Below the pieces are notes generated by a model. It searched no databases and was not told the origin of the DNA. It was given only the letters and a program-made list of their open reading frames with translations. Positions 2,663 through 11,610 of a DNA stretch of 21,962 bases are shown piece by piece (within the stretch, counting starts at the first letter, position 1; every line of letters starts with the position of its first letter). A program made the translations under genes and the position numbers. This DNA comes from a virus: positions 1-21,962 of IMG/VR virus record IMGVR_UViG_3300031510_000042; one strand, given 5' to 3'.

Positions 2663-5600
2663 ATGGCACTAAGTTCTTCAGTACCGTCTATAGCAACAAC
2701 CCCAACTGCAAAGAGTGGTATGGCAGGTTCATTGTTGCCGAAACAACAACATGCGATACTTAAGAAAATTGGTTTTACAGGTCCAGTAAATACAAATTCT
2801 ATGAACCAGTTTATGCAATCTACACCTGGTGCTGCTTCATTAGTTCTAAAGTTAACAAAAGCTGCTAAGGGAATAAAGAATTTAAATGCTGGTGGTGTCG
2901 TAAGTAGTGGTTACGACACTGGTGGTCTTGTCACTTATACATTTACTTACCCTAACGGTTACAATACAATTCAAGCTACGGGCGCAACAATAGATGAAGC
3001 TAAAACCAAAGCGGCTTCTCAGTATCGTAGCAGTGAACAACATAGGGCTAAGGGTGGTGAACCAATAAACTTTATAAATAGTCTTACAGTTACTGAAAAA
3101 CCAGCAAATGCCCAAGCATATATTTTGGCTGACTTACCAGTACCTGTAGGTGCGACTATGCTTAATGTTGATCGTAGAACTAAATCTATACTTAAAAGCA
3201 AAGGCTACACAGTAGAAGGTGGAGTAATTGCAACTGCACCTGCAGTACAAGACACCTTTGTTCCACAAGAACAAACACAAACTGCAGTTACTCCTTCTGC
3301 AGACCCTGATCCTAGAAATGAGATAAGTGCTGCTGCTGCTAATACTACTACAGATTCAAGTGCTGCTGCCAGTACAACAACAGGAAATGAGAACACTATG
3401 GCTGAAGAAACAAGAGAAGATTCAGCAGAAGCTAAAAAAATAAAAAATCTTAATGATCGTTTAACAATTAAAAAACAAAATCTTATTGATAAACAAGCAT
3501 TATTAGCTGCTGAACAAGCTAAAGTAACTACAGAAAATCCTAATACTTCTGGCATACAAACAGCCACAGCTAAAGTAACAACAGCTCAAAATGAAGTTAA
3601 TACACTTGTAGGAGAGCTTAGTACTTTAGCCACAGGAAAACAATCAGAGACATCTTTATTAGCTGTAGCTGATCCAGCTTCTTTAGTTAAAAAATCTACT
3701 ATAGCTAAATTAGATTCAACTACTGCGGGAACTACTATAGCTGCAGGTACAGGACAACTTAGTACAGCAGACCCTAAAGCAACTGTAACTACAGTTGATA
3801 CTCAAGCTATGGTTGATGCACCTTCTGAAATTACAGCAGAAAAAGCAGCGGTAACTACAACTAAAGATGATGTTGATGCAGCTTTAAAAGATGTCACTGC
3901 TATTCAAGGTACTGTATCAGATGAGGCACAAGTAACTGCTGAACAAGGTGAGTTATCTGAAGGAGCTACAGCAGCTGCTGTAAAAGTAGATCCAACTAAA
4001 GTTGTAGAAGTTATTGCTGGTGAAAGAACTGTAACCTCTGATGAAATGGCTGTGGCTCAAGGCTTAGATGAAGATGCTGTTAAAGCAAATATTGCAGAAG
4101 CTAATGTACCTGACAATATTAAAGCAGCACAGACAAGCGTATCACCAGAAGAAATTCCAAAGCCAGCACAGATTTTAGAATCTGATATGGCTTCAGCTAA
4201 AGCAATTACGGATGCTGGATTAACTGCTGATGCTACTGCTACTGCAGCTAAACTAGCAAAGTTTACTGTTGATGCTCAAACATTAGTAGAGTTTAAAGAA
4301 GGTAAGATTGAAGCAGAAGATACAGTACAAGGTCAACTTGCTTCATTGATGCAGGACTTTGATGATGGTACACCTGCATGGGCTGCTGGTGCTATGAGAG
4401 CAGCACGGGCTGCTATGGCAGCAAGAGGTCTAGGTGGTAGCTCTATGGCAATGTCAGCCATTGTACAAGCCTCTATGGAGTCAGCTATACCTATTGCATC
4501 TGCTGATGCTAATGCATTCCGTGAGATGAAGTTAAACAATCTTGGTCGTCAACAACAGGTTGCACTGAGTAATGCTGCTGCTCAACAAGGAGTTGAGATA
4601 GCTAACTTTAGTGCTGAACAACAGACAGCCTTACAAAACTCTCAAAATTCTTTTTCACTACAGTCACAGAACCTAAGTAATAAACAGGCTGTTGTATTAG
4701 CTAATGCACAGATTAAAGCTTCTTTGCAGGGTCAGAACCTGTCGAATCAACAGCAAGCTAACATTGCAGAGGCAGCACGTTATGCAGAGGTAAGCAATCT
4801 TAATTTAAATAATAGACAGCAAGGCATCTTGCAAGACAATGCTAATGAGATGCAAGTTAACTTGGCTAACTTATCTGCTAAACAACAAGCTTACATAGCT
4901 AATGCTCAACTAGAAGCTGCACTCCAAGGTAAAAAGATTGACAATAAACAACAGGTGGCTTTGACTAATGCTGCTCGTTTTGCTGAAGCTAACAACCTTA
5001 CGTTTACAGCAGCAGAGCAAGCTAAGATTCATAACTCCGATTTAATGAAAACAATTGGACTGGCAGAACTTAACGCAGAGCAAGCGGCAACACTACAAAA
5101 TGCAGCGTCTATAGCATCTATGGATATGACTAACTTGACTAATAGGCAGCAAGCAGCTGTAGTTAATGCTCAAGCTTTCTTACAAATGGATATAACTAAT
5201 TTATCTAACCAACAACAAGTTGCAATATTTAAAGGTCAAGCTATACAGCAGTCATTGCTAACAGATGCCGCTGCAGTTAATGCTGCTGCTCAGTTTAATG
5301 CTTCATCTGAAAATCAAACTAATCAATTCATGGCAACATTAAGCTCAAACGTCTCACAATTTAATGCTAACCAATCAAATGCAATTGCACAATACAATGC
5401 TGGTGCAGAAAATGCAGCCTCTCAATTTGATGTAAGCATTCAAAATCAACGTGATATATTTGAGGCTGGTAATACTCTTGTCGTAGCTCAAGCAAATGCA
5501 ACGTGGAAACAAAACTGTTCTACATTAGATACCGCTGCTACAAATCAAGCTAATAGTGCTTTTGCTTTAGAAGTAAATAACATGACTCAAAAAGTTATAG

Positions 5601-5782
5601 ATACTATATGGCAACGTGAACGTGACCTAATGGACTTTGCATACAAAGGTTCTGAGTCTGCAAAAGAACGTGGACTTCAGTTATTACTTGGTGATAAAAA
5701 ATATGAAGAGTATCAAAAAGCTAGAGATGATAAAGAAGATGATAATAGGTACAAGACAATCTGGGATGCGATATTAGAATAA
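2663..5782 (+). CDS. Large repeat-containing virion protein, putative ejection/internal protein, 1039 aa
   Basis: Three parts are visible. Residues 1 to about 200 are mixed and contain a beta-like stretch (YDTGGLVTYTFTYPNGY). Residues about 200-560 are low-complexity, rich in Ala/Thr/Asp/Glu. From about 565 a conserved-looking block (PAWAAGAMRAARAAMAARG) leads into a long repeat region: eleven 22-residue repeats (626-867), then seven 11-residue repeats (876-952). A charged tail follows (WQRERDLMDFAYKG). There is no signal peptide or membrane segment. I recall related NLxNxQQ-repeat proteins in marine phages, usually labelled virion structural protein. Its place between a small membrane protein and a lysozyme plus giant protein matches T7 gp15, which forms part of the helical DNA-ejection tube; that role is inference. 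Base composition is very A/T-rich (12 of 60 G+C at 3421-3480). Confidence 0.75.
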   Translation: MALSSSVPSIATTPTAKSGMAGSLLPKQQHAILKKIGFTGPVNTNSMNQFMQSTPGAASLVLKLTKAAKGIKNLNAGGVVSSGYDTGGLVTYTFTYPNGYNTIQATGATIDEAKTKAASQYRSSEQHRAKGGEPINFINSLTVTEKPANAQAYILADLPVPVGATMLNVDRRTKSILKSKGYTVEGGVIATAPAVQDTFVPQEQTQTAVTPSADPDPRNEISAAAANTTTDSSAAASTTTGNENTMAEETREDSAEAKKIKNLNDRLTIKKQNLIDKQALLAAEQAKVTTENPNTSGIQTATAKVTTAQNEVNTLVGELSTLATGKQSETSLLAVADPASLVKKSTIAKLDSTTAGTTIAAGTGQLSTADPKATVTTVDTQAMVDAPSEITAEKAAVTTTKDDVDAALKDVTAIQGTVSDEAQVTAEQGELSEGATAAAVKVDPTKVVEVIAGERTVTSDEMAVAQGLDEDAVKANIAEANVPDNIKAAQTSVSPEEIPKPAQILESDMASAKAITDAGLTADATATAAKLAKFTVDAQTLVEFKEGKIEAEDTVQGQLASLMQDFDDGTPAWAAGAMRAARAAMAARGLGGSSMAMSAIVQASMESAIPIASADANAFREMKLNNLGRQQQVALSNAAAQQGVEIANFSAEQQTALQNSQNSFSLQSQNLSNKQAVVLANAQIKASLQGQNLSNQQQANIAEAARYAEVSNLNLNNRQQGILQDNANEMQVNLANLSAKQQAYIANAQLEAALQGKKIDNKQQVALTNAARFAEANNLTFTAAEQAKIHNSDLMKTIGLAELNAEQAATLQNAASIASMDMTNLTNRQQAAVVNAQAFLQMDITNLSNQQQVAIFKGQAIQQSLLTDAAAVNAAAQFNASSENQTNQFMATLSSNVSQFNANQSNAIAQYNAGAENAASQFDVSIQNQRDIFEAGNTLVVAQANATWKQNCSTLDTAATNQANSAFALEVNNMTQKVIDTIWQRERDLMDFAYKGSESAKERGLQLLLGDKKYEEYQKARDDKEDDNRYKTIWDAILE
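4538..5263 (+). repeat. Eleven tandem 66-bp units encoding gap-free 22-residue helical repeats
   Basis: Residues 626-867 of the 1039-residue protein split into exactly eleven 22-residue units with no insertion or deletion. Typical first halves are NLSNRQQ-like (NLSNKQAVVLA, NLTNRQQAAVV, NLSNQQQVAIF). Across the units position 2 is Leu/Ile/Phe in 11 of 11 and position 10 is Leu/Ile/Val in 11 of 11. Asn occupies position 1 in 8 of 11 and position 12 in 8 of 11; Gln occupies position 6 in 10 of 11 and position 7 in 9 of 11. Asn at both 1 and 12 suggests an older 11-residue unit doubled. The DNA has diverged, so the period is conserved at protein level. Confidence 0.92.
5288..5518 (+). repeat. 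Seven 33-bp units encoding 11-residue repeats (xQFNA...)
   Basis: Residues 876-952 fall into seven consecutive 11-residue units: AQFNASSENQT, NQFMATLSSNV, SQFNANQSNAI, AQYNAGAENAA, SQFDVSIQNQR, DIFEAGNTLVV and AQANATWKQNC. Phe/Tyr sits at position 3 in six of seven. The array begins 8 residues after the 22-residue array, that is a shift of -3 from the 11-residue register. The last unit is degenerate. Confidence 0.82.
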
Positions 5783-5864: not shown

Positions 5865-6656
5865 ATGGCACGTCAAGCATCATATAAAAAAGTATTACTA
5901 ACTGCAAGAGAAGAAGCACAACAAAGACTTGGGCCTGCTTATAAATTTAGAGGTGCTATTGTTGACAGAGATGATGATGTAGCTAAATTAGCTGGATCTG
6001 CATTAGTTCCAAGACGTGAACAAACTGAAGAAGAAATGGACGATGACTTTTTAGGTAGTACTTTTAATAGAATCTATGCTGATAATAGAACTCTTGCTGA
6101 GATGTTAAGTGATAGAGGTGCTAGTATAGAGGGAAGTAGTACTCGTGCTATGACAGGCCCAGATGGTAAGCCTCTTGATATATTAAACAAAGGTGATGAT
6201 GTTGGTATTAAGATTGATCCTAAATCTAAAGAAGGAATTAATAATTTTTATTCTGCTCTCTTAATGTCGGAGTCTTCTAATAACAGCCAAGCACGACGTA
6301 CTAATAAAGATGGTAAAGAGTTTGGTGGTGAAGGTCAGTTTGGATTAGAAAGACTTCAGGATTACATGAGAGAAACTGGAGCAGCGTTTGATATGGATGC
6401 ATTTGTAGATGATCCTCAGCTACAGAAAAAAGTTGGAGCTTGGCACATCAATAGTATTGATAAAGAAATTGCAAAGATTAAAAATATTCCAGCAAGTCTT
6501 AGTAACCAAAATGGTCTTAGGGCAGTAGCACATCTTGGTGGCATTGAGGGTATGAAAGAGTTTATCAGAACTAATGGTAAATATAATAAGAGAGATGAAC
6601 TTGGAACAAGATTAATGTCATATTATAAGAAATTTTCATCTGGAACGGAGGCGTAA
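5865..6656 (+). CDS. Virion-associated lytic transglycosylase-like lysozyme, 263 aa
   Basis: The C-terminal half has the goose-lysozyme/SLT pattern: helix FYSALLMSESSNNSQARR with likely catalytic Glu136, then GGEGQFGLERLQDY (155-166), matching the family's G-x-x-Q-F/M segment. A C-terminal stretch, AVAHLGGIEGMKEFI then YNKRDELGTRLMSYY, resembles the tail of phage peptidoglycan hydrolases that cut the wall during DNA entry. The first ~120 residues are charged and unrecognised. No signal peptide or membrane helix is present, as expected for a protein packaged in the capsid. In T7 this activity is the N-terminal domain of gp16; here it is a separate gene four positions upstream... of the module end, with two unrecognised genes between it and the giant protein. 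The start has an A/T-rich leader with TAGGAAAATC before the ATG. Confidence 0.75.
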   Translation: MARQASYKKVLLTAREEAQQRLGPAYKFRGAIVDRDDDVAKLAGSALVPRREQTEEEMDDDFLGSTFNRIYADNRTLAEMLSDRGASIEGSSTRAMTGPDGKPLDILNKGDDVGIKIDPKSKEGINNFYSALLMSESSNNSQARRTNKDGKEFGGEGQFGLERLQDYMRETGAAFDMDAFVDDPQLQKKVGAWHINSIDKEIAKIKNIPASLSNQNGLRAVAHLGGIEGMKEFIRTNGKYNKRDELGTRLMSYYKKFSSGTEA

Positions 6657-6659
6657 GTA

Positions 6660-7187
6660 ATGTTTAGTGCACCTATACCAGGTCAGTCCTTAACTTCTGA
6701 AGTTAAAAACTCAGCTTGGGAAAATCCACCAGAGATGTCTGCACCAGAAGATGCTGTAATGTGGCACATAACAAGACTGAACGATCCAGAAAAGTTTAAA
6801 GGTATTTTTGAATTACTTGAGTTAGGTATAGATGTTGTTACTTTAACGGAAGGTCTTCTTCGTACTGCTGTTGCAGATGGTCGTCATAGTATTGATGTTA
6901 GTTTAATTATTGCCCCTATTATACACGAGTTAATTGTAGGTAGGGCTACAGCTGCTAAGATTGATTTTAATGAAGGGCTTGATGAAGAAGATAAAGAATC
7001 TCAAAAAGATATAGACTATAAAATTGAAAGCATTAAAGCAGATAAGATTATTAAAGATATGGAAAAGACTGGAGAAATTAATTTGTCTCCCTTAAAAGAT
7101 ACAGAAGAAAAAATGTCCCCAGAAGAAACACCTCCAAAACAAATTGAAGAGAAACCAATGGGTCTTATGTCACGGAGGACTGCGTAA
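6660..7187 (+). CDS. Conserved-looking virion-module protein, 175 aa
   Basis: It begins MFSAPIPGQSLTSEVKNSAWE and contains a helical, mostly hydrophobic core (FELLELGIDVVTLTEGLLR, then SIDVSLIIAPIIHELIVG). A strongly charged tail (DEEDKESQKDIDYKIES) ends in GLMSRRTA. From memory, proteins with this opening and ending occur in cyanophages and other marine phages as structural or hypothetical proteins, but I cannot confirm that here. Its ATG follows a GGAGG site three bases after the lysozyme stop, and its stop shares a base with the next start, so it is tightly coupled in the operon. The function is unknown; a minor virion or assembly role is inferred from position. Confidence 0.65.
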   Translation: MFSAPIPGQSLTSEVKNSAWENPPEMSAPEDAVMWHITRLNDPEKFKGIFELLELGIDVVTLTEGLLRTAVADGRHSIDVSLIIAPIIHELIVGRATAAKIDFNEGLDEEDKESQKDIDYKIESIKADKIIKDMEKTGEINLSPLKDTEEKMSPEETPPKQIEEKPMGLMSRRTA

Positions 7188-8248
7188 TGGGTATTTGGAC
7201 AGGCTATCAAATGGCTAAAGCAGATAAAAATGAAAGAGAAAAAGATCAAGCTACACGAGATCTTGCAGAACGAAGACTAGAGTTGATGGAAGAACAGTTT
7301 GCTGAGGGTAAAAGACAGACAACATTAGATTGGATTTCTAAGTATCAAGATGCTAGTGGAGAAAGAGAAACAGGTGCAAAAGCTAAAGCAGCAACTTTAC
7401 AAAAACTTAGAGTTATGGGGTTAGATGCTAGAACTTCTAACTATCTTATTGATAGTGGTGAAGCTGGAAGTATTATAACAGTCTATGATGAACGAGTAGG
7501 TAAAACTTTATCTCAAGATTGGATTCCTAGTCTAATGAAAATGGTAAGTGCTAATTTAGATGACGAAACATCTGTTGCTGCAAAAGCTCTTGCTGTTAAA
7601 TCTGCATTGCTTAGTGCAGAAGATCAAACAACTGAGGAAGGACAACGTTCTGCTTTTCAAGAAGCTATATTTAATGTTATCTCTGGTGAAGAGTCAGGTA
7701 TAGAAAACTTTGATGAGGAATTAGCAAGATCTATTTTTAGTATGAATCAACCTCAAACAACTATTGGATTACCACCCATAGGAAATCTTACTACAGGTAG
7801 TAAAGCAATTAACTCTGATGAAACTAAAAAAATTAGACTGCAAATTATAGAAGGAGTAGCACCTATCCTTGGTGAAGTATTCATGAAAGATAGTGACGGT
7901 ATACTTACAGGTTTATTAGATCAATCACAAATAGAAGGTCCAGTGTCTGGTGAAAAAATAGAAAATTTAATTAGTAACACTGTACAAAAAATTATAGATA
8001 AACTTGAAAGAGTAGGTGAGTATAATCCTTCAGATGTTATTGAGGGAGGAAAAATCTATGCAATTGAAATGGCTCAAGCACTCAAAAAGAACGAAGGTAA
8101 AAATATAAAAGTTGATAATACACCAACAGGTGGGTTTGCTCCAATGAATAATAATCCTCCACCTTTTGTTACTGGCGGTGGATTAACGGAAGACAATAAT
8201 GCCTTTGATCCTTATGGGTCTATAGTAACTGAAAGAACTGTTCCATAA
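7187..8248 (+). CDS. Unrecognised virion-module protein, 353 aa
   Basis: The ATG overlaps the previous stop by one base and has a GGAGG site about 8 nt upstream. The N-terminus is a long charged helix (KADKNEREKDQATRDLAERR, then LELMEEQFAEGKRQ), likely a coiled coil over residues 12-50. A mainly helical body follows, and the C-terminus is Pro/Gly/Asn-rich and probably disordered (GFAPMNNNPPPFVTGGGL). No catalytic motif or membrane segment is seen. It sits between the 175-residue protein and the giant protein in an operon with one-base overlaps, so it probably acts with them in the virion or in its assembly. It is not recognised beyond that. Confidence 0.65.
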   Translation: MGIWTGYQMAKADKNEREKDQATRDLAERRLELMEEQFAEGKRQTTLDWISKYQDASGERETGAKAKAATLQKLRVMGLDARTSNYLIDSGEAGSIITVYDERVGKTLSQDWIPSLMKMVSANLDDETSVAAKALAVKSALLSAEDQTTEEGQRSAFQEAIFNVISGEESGIENFDEELARSIFSMNQPQTTIGLPPIGNLTTGSKAINSDETKKIRLQIIEGVAPILGEVFMKDSDGILTGLLDQSQIEGPVSGEKIENLISNTVQKIIDKLERVGEYNPSDVIEGGKIYAIEMAQALKKNEGKNIKVDNTPTGGFAPMNNNPPPFVTGGGLTEDNNAFDPYGSIVTERTVP

Positions 8249-11200
8249 TGACTAGTTATTTAGATAATGTTTCTGGCTCTACTATAGAAGACCTAAAAGA
8301 AAATAAAGATTTTCAAAAAGATTTAGTTCGTTTCCTATCTAGTGATAGAATAAATTTTAGTATTGATGAGCTACGTGAAGGTGGTGTTGACTTTATGGTT
8401 GACGAGTATGTAGAACATATGCGTGGTCAAGATGCTAATGAAGTTACTGCACTGAGAGATTTATCTTTTGCTAAAGATACAACTACTAGAGAATCAGATA
8501 GACTAGCCTTTGGTCGTCTCATGGAAACCTGGGATAAAGTAGATGGTGTAGGCACAGGTTTTATTAAAGGTACGTTTGATTATGGGGAAGCTATCCTTAC
8601 CTCACCTGCAACTTTAGCTTCTGTCTTCACAGGTGGATACTCTAAGTTAGGTGCTGTTGCTGCAACTAAGGCAACTCAACTGGCTACAAGGGCTGCAGTT
8701 AAAAGTATTATGTCTAAACAATTTGCTAAGGAAGCAGCAAAAGGATTTGTTAGAACAGCAGCTGTTGAGGGTGCATTAACAGCAGGTCAAGTTGAAGTAC
8801 AGGAAAGTGCTAGAGAAAATACAATTGAAGACTATCAAGGTATGTCTATAGGAGAAAAAGCTTTTACGGTTGGTATAGGTGCAGGGTTTGGTGGTACTCT
8901 AGGTGGATTTTCTAGAGGTTTAAGTATAAAACAAGCTGATCAAGTAGCTGAAAATTTAATGAAACAGTCTTCTAGTATTGCTGCTAACAAACAAAAGATT
9001 GCTAAGGTAGCAGTAAAAAAATTAAGTGAGGTTGGATCTACTGCTCAAGGCAGGAAAAAAGTTAATAACATACTGAATAAGATGAATGGTCTAGTAGATA
9101 TTCTAGCTAAAAGAGATGTTAAAAAGAATCCTCTCGATCCTAAAAAAGTTGCTGAAGGTTTAGATATAAAAAAAGATATTCTTACTGAAGGTCCAAACAT
9201 AGATGTTACTGCAGGACTTTCACGACATACCCTTCAAGGAATTGCTGCAGCTGCTCTTGAGGTTGCAGAAGTAATTAAACTAAAAGAGGGTGAAAGAATA
9301 AGCACTGCCTTAGCACAAGCTATGGACGATGGAATAATAAACACAAAAAGTATAGATAAAATAATTAATGACTATGGTCTTACTAGAGAAGAATTTGGAT
9401 ATGTATTTTTATCAGACCTATCTGAAGCAGGTAGAACTCTAGGTGCTGCTGGTCAAGTTGCTAAGTTAATTAAGAAGTCAGACTTAAGTGAGATACTAGA
9501 TAAGATAGAAGTGCTATCTGATCAAGGTGTTGGTGTATACAATGATAGGTTAGCTAAAGAAGTATCTGCTACTATAGGTGTTGAGAGAACTGCTTTTGGA
9601 ACAGCCGTAGAAGCATTGCGCCAGACAGACTCAGCACGTATTGCATTTATGACATCTCAAATAGGTACAACCGCAGCCAATGCTATGTTTTCTACAGCCC
9701 GTATGGGTATTGATGTAGTAGATGAAGTCTTTAGACAAACACTTCGTACTGGATATACCTTTGCGACTACAGGTAAAGTACCTATAAGTAATTTTCGTGC
9801 TGTTACTTCTGGTTTAAGAAGTATGTCTTGGAATAAACAAGATGCACTGATGGTAAAGGAAATGTATAAAAGAGATTTTCCAGAAGAATACCAGAAGATA
9901 TTCTACGACATCAACAGGGCTGAAGTTTCTGTTGGTTCTGATACTGTTGTTGGAAAGGTTGGATCTTTTGTAAACCTCTTAAACTCTGCTGTTGACTCAA
10001 GATTTAAACAAGCGGCATTCTATTCCTCAATAGATAGGCAGTTAATAGAAAGAGGAGAAGGTGGGTTAAAAGATTTTTTAAGTAAAAATGATAGCCTGTT
10101 AGACTTACCTGATCAAGCTATAAAAGATAAAGCTGTATATGATAGCTTAGACTTTGTGTTTCAAAAAGGATACAAGAAAGAAGATGCGATGGGTCTTCCT
10201 CGTTTCTTTATCAATGCCCACAAAAAAGCTCCGTTTGTTGTGTCGGGATTTTTAGGTATGCCTTTTCCAAGGTATGTAGCAAATCATATAGAGTTTATTA
10301 ATGACTATACTCCAATTGCTTTTGTTACTGGAGGAAAAAAGAACTTTGATAAAGTTTATGCAGGAACATTAAAAGATCCTACAGAAAGAATGGCACGTCA
10401 AATGACTGGCATATCTTTAATATCAGGTGCTGTGTATGCTCGTGCTTCTCAAGTTGAGTTTGATGATGATGGCAAAGCAATAGGAATGAAGACTGCTTTT
10501 TCTGATATGCAGTTTGGACAAGCAGGTGAGACTAAAAGATTAGGTCGTGTAGCAGGTGCATTAGCTGCACACCAATTACTTGGTGATCTTATTGTACGTT
10601 ATCACTATGGTTTACCTATGCCAAAAACATCTGAAACAATAAGAAATACTTTGGATGTTGCTGGTGGTTTAGGTAACATGGGTTTTGATAAAGGATTAGA
10701 ATCTGACATACGAAAAGCTTTTGATGAAGCTAGCTTTAAACCTATAGCTAGAAGATTAGCAGATGTCATGGCTACTTTTACATACCCTCTTACAGTATTT
10801 AAAGATTTACAGGGTCAAATAAATCCTGAAGCAAGTTATGTTCCTTACACAAGAGACTTAATGCTAGGTGATGGTAAACAAGAAGAATATAATCTTCTTA
10901 CTGCTATGTTTACAGACACTGAATCTATAAATAGACTTGTTCGTTTTTTACCTGAGACAGATCTAGTACAGTACACTCAATCTCTTGATGGTAGAAAATC
11001 AACAGTCCTTTATGACCCTATTGGTGGTGGGCCAGTAAGATCTAGGAACCCTATTACAAAACAATTACTAGGTATTGAAAGTAAGAAAGCTCCAAACACA
11101 TTACAAAAAAATATTAACAACCTTAATCTAAAAGAATTTTTACTCTATAGAAAAAGTCAGATTAGAAATCCAGCACTAGATATTTTAGTAAGGTTTGGTT

Positions 11201-11610
11201 TATCTAAAACTTTAAACAGTGACTTTGAAAAGTACATAGCTAAACCACTAAAAGAATATGATAATGCAATGATGTATAGTGAAGCTTCTCCAGATGAACA
11301 AGCTATGTTAGTAACACAATTTATAAAGGGTAAAGCTAGGGCTATGGAGGCCCGTATTGAAGTATACTTCGAAGAGCTTAGTAATAAAAGTCCAAGGGCT
11401 GCAGCTTCTTATATTAGAAATGCTTTTCAAATTGAGATGCAACAAGCAAAGCCAGGTGTTACTGAAAGATCTGTCAACCATGCTTCAGGCGGTAAGTTTA
11501 ATTCTAGTGACGAATATATTAACGACTCAGAAGATATAGATGAAGAGTTAAAAAGAAAACAAAGAATTATGCAGCTGAATGCAGTGCAAGAACAAAAGAT
11601 AAATATGTAG
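8248..11610 (+). CDS. Giant internal virion / ejection protein (gp16 position), 1120 aa
   Basis: It is the last gene of the rightward module and starts at an ATG overlapping the preceding stop by one base with no clear ribosome site, so translation is probably coupled. Mildly hydrophobic or glycine-rich stretches occur at about residues 110-150 (ILTSPATLASVFTGG) and 205-225 (FTVGIGAGFGGTLGGFSRG), and long amphipathic helices fill the rest. This fits proteins that leave the capsid and enter membranes during DNA injection. The opening (TSYLDNVSGSTIEDLKENKD, then VDEYVEHMRGQDANEVTALR) recalls large structural proteins of marine phages. Size and position match T7 gp16 (about 1300 residues), but the lysozyme part is encoded separately upstream. 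The ejection role is inferred; no enzymatic motif was seen. Confidence 0.7.
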   Translation: MTSYLDNVSGSTIEDLKENKDFQKDLVRFLSSDRINFSIDELREGGVDFMVDEYVEHMRGQDANEVTALRDLSFAKDTTTRESDRLAFGRLMETWDKVDGVGTGFIKGTFDYGEAILTSPATLASVFTGGYSKLGAVAATKATQLATRAAVKSIMSKQFAKEAAKGFVRTAAVEGALTAGQVEVQESARENTIEDYQGMSIGEKAFTVGIGAGFGGTLGGFSRGLSIKQADQVAENLMKQSSSIAANKQKIAKVAVKKLSEVGSTAQGRKKVNNILNKMNGLVDILAKRDVKKNPLDPKKVAEGLDIKKDILTEGPNIDVTAGLSRHTLQGIAAAALEVAEVIKLKEGERISTALAQAMDDGIINTKSIDKIINDYGLTREEFGYVFLSDLSEAGRTLGAAGQVAKLIKKSDLSEILDKIEVLSDQGVGVYNDRLAKEVSATIGVERTAFGTAVEALRQTDSARIAFMTSQIGTTAANAMFSTARMGIDVVDEVFRQTLRTGYTFATTGKVPISNFRAVTSGLRSMSWNKQDALMVKEMYKRDFPEEYQKIFYDINRAEVSVGSDTVVGKVGSFVNLLNSAVDSRFKQAAFYSSIDRQLIERGEGGLKDFLSKNDSLLDLPDQAIKDKAVYDSLDFVFQKGYKKEDAMGLPRFFINAHKKAPFVVSGFLGMPFPRYVANHIEFINDYTPIAFVTGGKKNFDKVYAGTLKDPTERMARQMTGISLISGAVYARASQVEFDDDGKAIGMKTAFSDMQFGQAGETKRLGRVAGALAAHQLLGDLIVRYHYGLPMPKTSETIRNTLDVAGGLGNMGFDKGLESDIRKAFDEASFKPIARRLADVMATFTYPLTVFKDLQGQINPEASYVPYTRDLMLGDGKQEEYNLLTAMFTDTESINRLVRFLPETDLVQYTQSLDGRKSTVLYDPIGGGPVRSRNPITKQLLGIESKKAPNTLQKNINNLNLKEFLLYRKSQIRNPALDILVRFGLSKTLNSDFEKYIAKPLKEYDNAMMYSEASPDEQAMLVTQFIKGKARAMEARIEVYFEELSNKSPRAAASYIRNAFQIEMQQAKPGVTERSVNHASGGKFNSSDEYINDSEDIDEELKRKQRIMQLNAVQEQKINM

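Follow-up and report, generated by a model that had tools for sequence, protein, structure and literature searches.

The window, by which we mean the whole stretch of 21,962 nucleotides analysed here, carries on its plus strand a gene for a 1039-aa protein in which a variable N-terminal part, a helical head block, a long array of 11-residue repeats (hendecads) and a helical tail follow one another (Table 1). Among relatives, conservation is highest in the C-terminal part and variability in the N-terminal part, and the head block is recognized by the motif P.WA..A......MA.RGL..SS...A....A..SA.PIA. Searches of Pfam, PHROG and NCBIfam with the 1039-aa protein returned no family match. Tail-fibre genes lie directly upstream, and small proteins of membrane-spanning appearance adjoin the array gene; the upstream one, called a membrane protein in the earlier note, owes that description solely to the appearance of its sequence. 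An ORF at positions 1783-2118 overlaps the end of that at 1482-1847 and encodes a membrane-like N-terminal segment and a coiled-coil-like part, with a DUF7365 match below the cut-off.

Table 1. Parts of the array protein and genes of the downstream cassette, in window coordinates.
Feature	Residues	Positions	Strand	Remarks
Gene of the 1039-aa hendecad-array protein		2663..5782	+	Reading frame; relatives known
Variable N-terminal part	1-550	2663..4312	+	146-1012 residues in relatives
Conserved helical head block	551-629	4313..4549	+	Helix pLDDT ~72-84
Array as first noted, eleven 22-residue units (22 hendecads)	626-867	4538..5263	+	
Array continuation in unchanged register, ten hendecads	868-977	5264..5593	+	Pattern ..QFNA..ENQ..QF..
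C-terminal helical tail	978-1039	5594..5779	+	Followed by an S74 chaperone domain in some relatives
263-aa lysozyme-like protein, variable neighbour		5865..6656	+	PHROG endolysin match, 3.7e-6
175-aa protein, constant downstream partner		6660..7187	+	Relatives in 187 loci, and also in 23 of the phage records with the array protein
1120-aa giant protein, end of cassette, position of T7 gp16		8248..11610	+	

The earlier note had divided residues 626-867 into eleven units of 22 residues with zero indel, and its coordinates and residue counts proved exact. Position 2 of the 22-mer is Leu, Phe or Ile and position 10 Leu, Ile or Val in all eleven units, position 6 is Gln in ten and Glu in one, and Asn stands at position 1 in eight units and likewise at position 12 in eight. 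The mean pairwise protein identity among the units is 0.29, as against 0.105 in shuffles of the same residues (maximum 0.134 in 2000 shuffles), and the self-identity at lags of 22, 44 and 66 residues is 0.27, 0.24 and 0.28, as against 0.158 at most in 500 shuffles. At the DNA level the units are 44% identical (0.44; 0.37 at third codon positions), and Tandem Repeats Finder does not detect the array. The 22-residue period is thus real, but it is not the basic one: hendecads run on in frame to residue 977, and therefore the unit is 11 residues and the array comprises ~32 hendecads in uninterrupted 11-residue periodicity.

The array is rich in Ala and Gln and has little Gly; over residues 615-978 there is zero proline, and Asn and Gln together make up ~0.29 of the residues. 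Averaged over 40 relatives, apolar residues occupy hendecad positions 2, 10, 8 and 11, Gln, Ser or Asn positions 3 and 7, Asn position 1, and Gln or Asn position 6, with charge concentrated at positions 5, 9 and 1. The apolar power is highest at 163.6 degrees, which corresponds to the second harmonic of 98.2 degrees per residue, and is weak at the first harmonic. This pattern is expected of a helix that carries apolar strips on two opposite sides, and we infer that such helices would pack into barrels or sheets more readily than into simple dimers. An extra hydrophobicity peak at 130.9 degrees has no explanation.

AlphaFold2 monomer models of residues 538-1039, from two runs with 39 and 90 sequences, contain only helix and zero strand, at low confidence (mean pLDDT 56 and 65, pTM 0.21 and 0.26), which agrees with the helices expected in the earlier note rather than with a beta-solenoid or disorder. 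The pLDDT reaches ~80 in the head and the C-terminal tail but stays under 57 over most of the middle of the array, where the helix breaks at ~22-residue steps between residues 754 and 849. As modelled, the array is likely helical, with uncertain continuity, and likely forms a helical rod of hendecads. Hendecads correspond to 11/3 = 3.67 residues per turn, from which a right-handed supercoil would follow. Because the array is longer than first noted, 32 hendecads as one straight helix would measure ~530 angstrom, in place of the roughly 360 angstrom proposed earlier. Foldseek against the PDB gave zero matches for the model, and VIA-align against eight chains gave Z below 5, with no solved relative. 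The structure search of BFVD returns relatives and uncharacterized phage proteins, and the sequence search of the PDB yields only weak matches, with leucine-rich repeats on top (E 8.7 and 0.19).

The strictness of the 11-residue unit is clearest in the lengths of the array among relatives. The distance between two conserved flanking blocks (residues 551-629 and 867-949) was measured with HMMs in fetched loci and annotated phages. These anchors were preferred to MAFFT gap lengths within the array (50 of 89 exact multiples), because gap placement blurs the array edges. The 154 unique sequences gave 15 inter-block distances, every one 7 modulo 11; once bacterial-bin contigs were added, there were 165 unique relatives with 16 distances (18-568 residues), and 165/165 were 7 modulo 11. 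Outside the array the rule does not apply: between the second block and the stop codon, taken as a control, 43 different distances occur, spread across all remainders modulo 11. Therefore, selection on the 11-residue register is very well supported by these sequences, as the earlier note had argued from low DNA identity combined with a strict period: the relatives differ by whole hendecads only. Whole-unit variation of an 11-residue repeat is a feature that the array shares with tape measure proteins. A tree built from the flanks requires 24 or more changes of length class, and array size ranges from about 12 to 60 hendecads. Since 14 of the 16 distance classes are also 18 modulo 22, hendecads are gained or lost mostly in pairs, and the copying unit is usually 22 residues. 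Antiparallel stacks of 22-residue hairpins are unlikely, because length also shifts in steps of one hendecad or of an odd number of 22-residue units.

The earlier note had further supposed that the array is suited in length to spanning a periplasm. Its length does not track the host: phages of FZCC0040 have 117 and 62 residues between the anchors, those of two SAR11 hosts 194 and 40, and the longest relative (568 residues) would reach ~1000 angstrom if straight. Array length thus varies even among phages that share a host, and we reject a simple periplasm ruler.

The closest relatives found by tblastn belong to HMO-2011-type podophages, namely Puniceispirillum phage HMO-2011, Roseobacter CRP phages and Pelagibacter HTVC phages, with phiM6 and phages of Rhizobium, Aeromonas, Vibrio and Pseudoalteromonas more distant. 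HMO-2011 has been described as a podovirus (PMC6256558), and the HMO-2011-type phages as a dominant, widely distributed marine group (PMC9038755). The literature searched yielded no virion proteomics of this group. In nearly every relative's record the array protein is hypothetical; the homologue in ctYwJ313 (L083:2856-5447) carries the GenBank label 'huntingtin', probably a misannotation. Phage contigs that agree in length and match (L210/L214 and L212/L213) were placed in two different bacterial MAGs, Neomarinimicrobiota MED589 and Flavobacteriales TMED123, which makes host labels from such bins unsafe.

The gene order of array gene, 175-aa protein, variable protein and giant protein, together with the partner itself, recurs in ~22 isolates. 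The layout of this cassette resembles the T7 gp14-15-16 block, and to that extent the context drawn in the earlier note, with the array gene before a lysozyme and a giant protein, stands; the constant neighbour is not the lysozyme but the 175-aa protein, which follows the array gene in almost all relatives, matches nothing in the family libraries and is probably a virion protein that co-assembles. The resemblance to T7 is limited by the giant protein, for which neither a PDB relative nor a recognizable relative beyond close phages was found. Between the two, positions 7187-8248 encode a 353-aa protein with just one relative among the loci compared, in a slot whose size varies between relatives.

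An S74 chaperone domain occurs in 5 of 50 relatives, whereas the window protein lacks it. As an intramolecular chaperone it ends the array proteins of CRP-3, CRP-738, CRP-235 and CRP-212 (L093, L095, L100 and L101), and the CRP-235 protein (L100:2920-5451) also has an N-terminal LysM peptidoglycan-binding domain, the one LysM found among the relatives. CRP relatives match the PHROG families 'DNA ejection protein' and 'virion structural protein', but through the S74 end only, and the matches were gone after it was trimmed.

To compare the array with known proteins, a hendecad profile was trained on the array family alone, and phage proteins were scored against composition-preserving shuffles, with a background of 236 proteins. 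The DNA pilot protein H of phiX174 (Microviridae) forms a decameric alpha-helical tube of 170 angstrom, built of three hendecads followed by heptads, with a lumen of mostly Gln, Asn and Arg (PMC7354561). The profile picks it at z 4.9 over residues 145-177, covering its known hendecads from residue 151 on. T7 gp14, an outer-membrane channel protein (PMC8954989), scores z 4.5 in this comparison, within a T7 range of 3.9-4.5, and the next best among the 236 background proteins z 3.8. Two H relatives score z ~4.5, and two gp14 relatives 5.2 and 2.8; T7 gp15 and gp16, P22 gp7, gp20, gp16 and gp26, P-SSP7 gp14 and DEV gp72 and gp73 gave no profile score. The register of the profile aligns the Gln residues of positions 1 and 8 in the phiX hendecads with positions 7 and 3 of the family. 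Compared position by position and without the profile, the two sets of hendecads are only weakly similar (permutation p 0.06). Homology to H was not found by hhalign (probability 0.4%, E 0.16), nor homology to T7 gp14 or P22 gp7 by profile or hhalign; an A3 profile placed gp14 first among six proteins (E 0.0007, six sequences), which fails to hold against the background. The array protein may thus work like H, by analogy, and membership of its family is not implied.

We tentatively favour, at somewhat less than an even chance, an ejection-cassette virion protein of HMO-2011-type podophages whose helices form an amide-rich tube or rod acting like phiX174 H. The protein would combine a helical head and a C-terminal part, both conserved, with the long alpha-helical array of 11-residue units between them. 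Copies of it would lie alongside one another in register, each helix in contact with its neighbours through the two opposite apolar strips (hendecad positions 2/10 and 8/11). One face would then present the Gln/Ser/Asn strip (positions 3 and 7) and the opposite face the charged strip (positions 5 and 9). DNA would pass along the amide strip, in the way that it passes along Gln in the H tube; which strip faces inward is a guess. A link to DNA delivery is plausible, and a conduit may follow from this arrangement, with the location in the virion, the side-by-side assembly and the passage of DNA all belonging to the proposal. What has been observed directly is the array with its strict 11-residue quantum, the pattern of strips and the conservation of the neighbourhood. 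The helix-only models, the repeated changes in length, the absence of proline and the Asn/Gln content, the second-harmonic apolar power, the profile matches, the constant partner gene and cassette order, and the LysM domain on one relative count in its favour. The missing homology to H, gp14 and gp7, the lack of a profile score for DEV gp72/gp73, T7 gp15/gp16, P22 gp7/gp20 and P-SSP7 gp14, the weak position-wise similarity to the phiX hendecads, the low pLDDT of the array with its breaks, the search for proteomics that found none, the 130.9-degree peak and the fibre-typical S74 domain on some relatives count against it.

Some of the same observations would also suit other roles. An internal rod or scaffold in the core or tail interior, which sets or fills length in the virion and forms no DNA tube, would explain the strong length variation between relatives and has its nearest precedent in tape measure proteins, which gain or lose whole 11-residue repeats (PMC3271669). 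We consider it unlikely: these phages are described as podoviruses, HMO-2011 among them (PMC6256558), and so lack a long tail whose length could be set; the repeats of tape measure proteins carry Trp and Phe as markers but the array Asn, Gln and Leu; and the profile picks DNA-channel proteins, in a tested set that included no tape measure proteins. About as improbable is a trimeric helical shaft of an external fibre or spike on the tail or head, with a C-terminal folding chaperone in some relatives. S74 is a domain characteristic of fibres and spikes, genes for tail fibres are found immediately upstream, and array length is free to vary, up to ~60 hendecads; yet S74 is also found in proteins annotated as DNA injection proteins, the LysM of one relative points to peptidoglycan, the distribution of conservation between the N- and C-terminal parts is the opposite of that in usual tail fibres, and two apolar strips do not suit a simple trimer.

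Apolipoproteins and synuclein have 11-residue repeats that form an amphipathic helix on lipid. A long membrane-active helix of this kind would accord with the 11-residue repeats, the few charges and the adjoining small proteins that look membrane-spanning, but is quite improbable here, as the weak first harmonic speaks against a single amphipathic face and the strict Asn and Gln positions are atypical. Least probable is a beta-solenoid or leucine-rich-repeat fold with coils of 11 or 22 residues; hydrophobicity does alternate in part within the unit, and leucine-rich repeats top the weak PDB sequence matches, but neither AlphaFold2 run has a strand, the composition is that of an Ala/Gln-rich array with little Gly and no Pro, and the leucine-rich-repeat consensus is absent.

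The 11-residue quantum, kept across 165 relatives, provides an exact rule that a rod or tube in a phage can be tested against. Beyond the favoured ejection-cassette reading, it is possible, though doubtful, that podophages have a DNA-delivery tube with a wall of one helix type made of whole 11-residue units, so that evolution could vary its length between about 12 and 60 units and still keep the register; it would be a counterpart of the phiX174 H tube in tailed phages, with an independent origin.

Each of the known systems shares part of these features. As in the array, tape measure proteins have a variable number of gap-free 11-residue units with gain and loss of whole blocks, and such whole-unit variation is already known there (PMC3271669); they belong to long-tailed phages and carry Trp/Phe markers, whereas the array belongs to a podophage and has an Asn/Gln/Leu pattern. 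The T7 ejection proteins gp14, gp15 and gp16 (and P22 gp7, gp20 and gp16) are alike in layout, with array, small, variable and giant (1100-1300 aa) proteins, and a short stretch of gp14 fits the profile, but none of them has an array. In the Schitoviridae, DEV gp72:gp73 is a long alpha-helical tube beside a giant virion protein and is thought to carry DNA across the envelope (PMC10925440), although the hendecad profile does not match it. The likeness to phiX174 H (PDB 4JPP) lies in its Gln-rich hendecad helices, the Gln positions of which match the Gln/Ser strip of the array in the register of the profile; H comes from a tailless ssDNA phage and has three hendecads and then heptads, in contrast to the ~32 hendecads of the array. 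If the array does line a DNA passage, tailless ssDNA phages and tailed dsDNA phages would both have arrived at helices lined with amides for this purpose.
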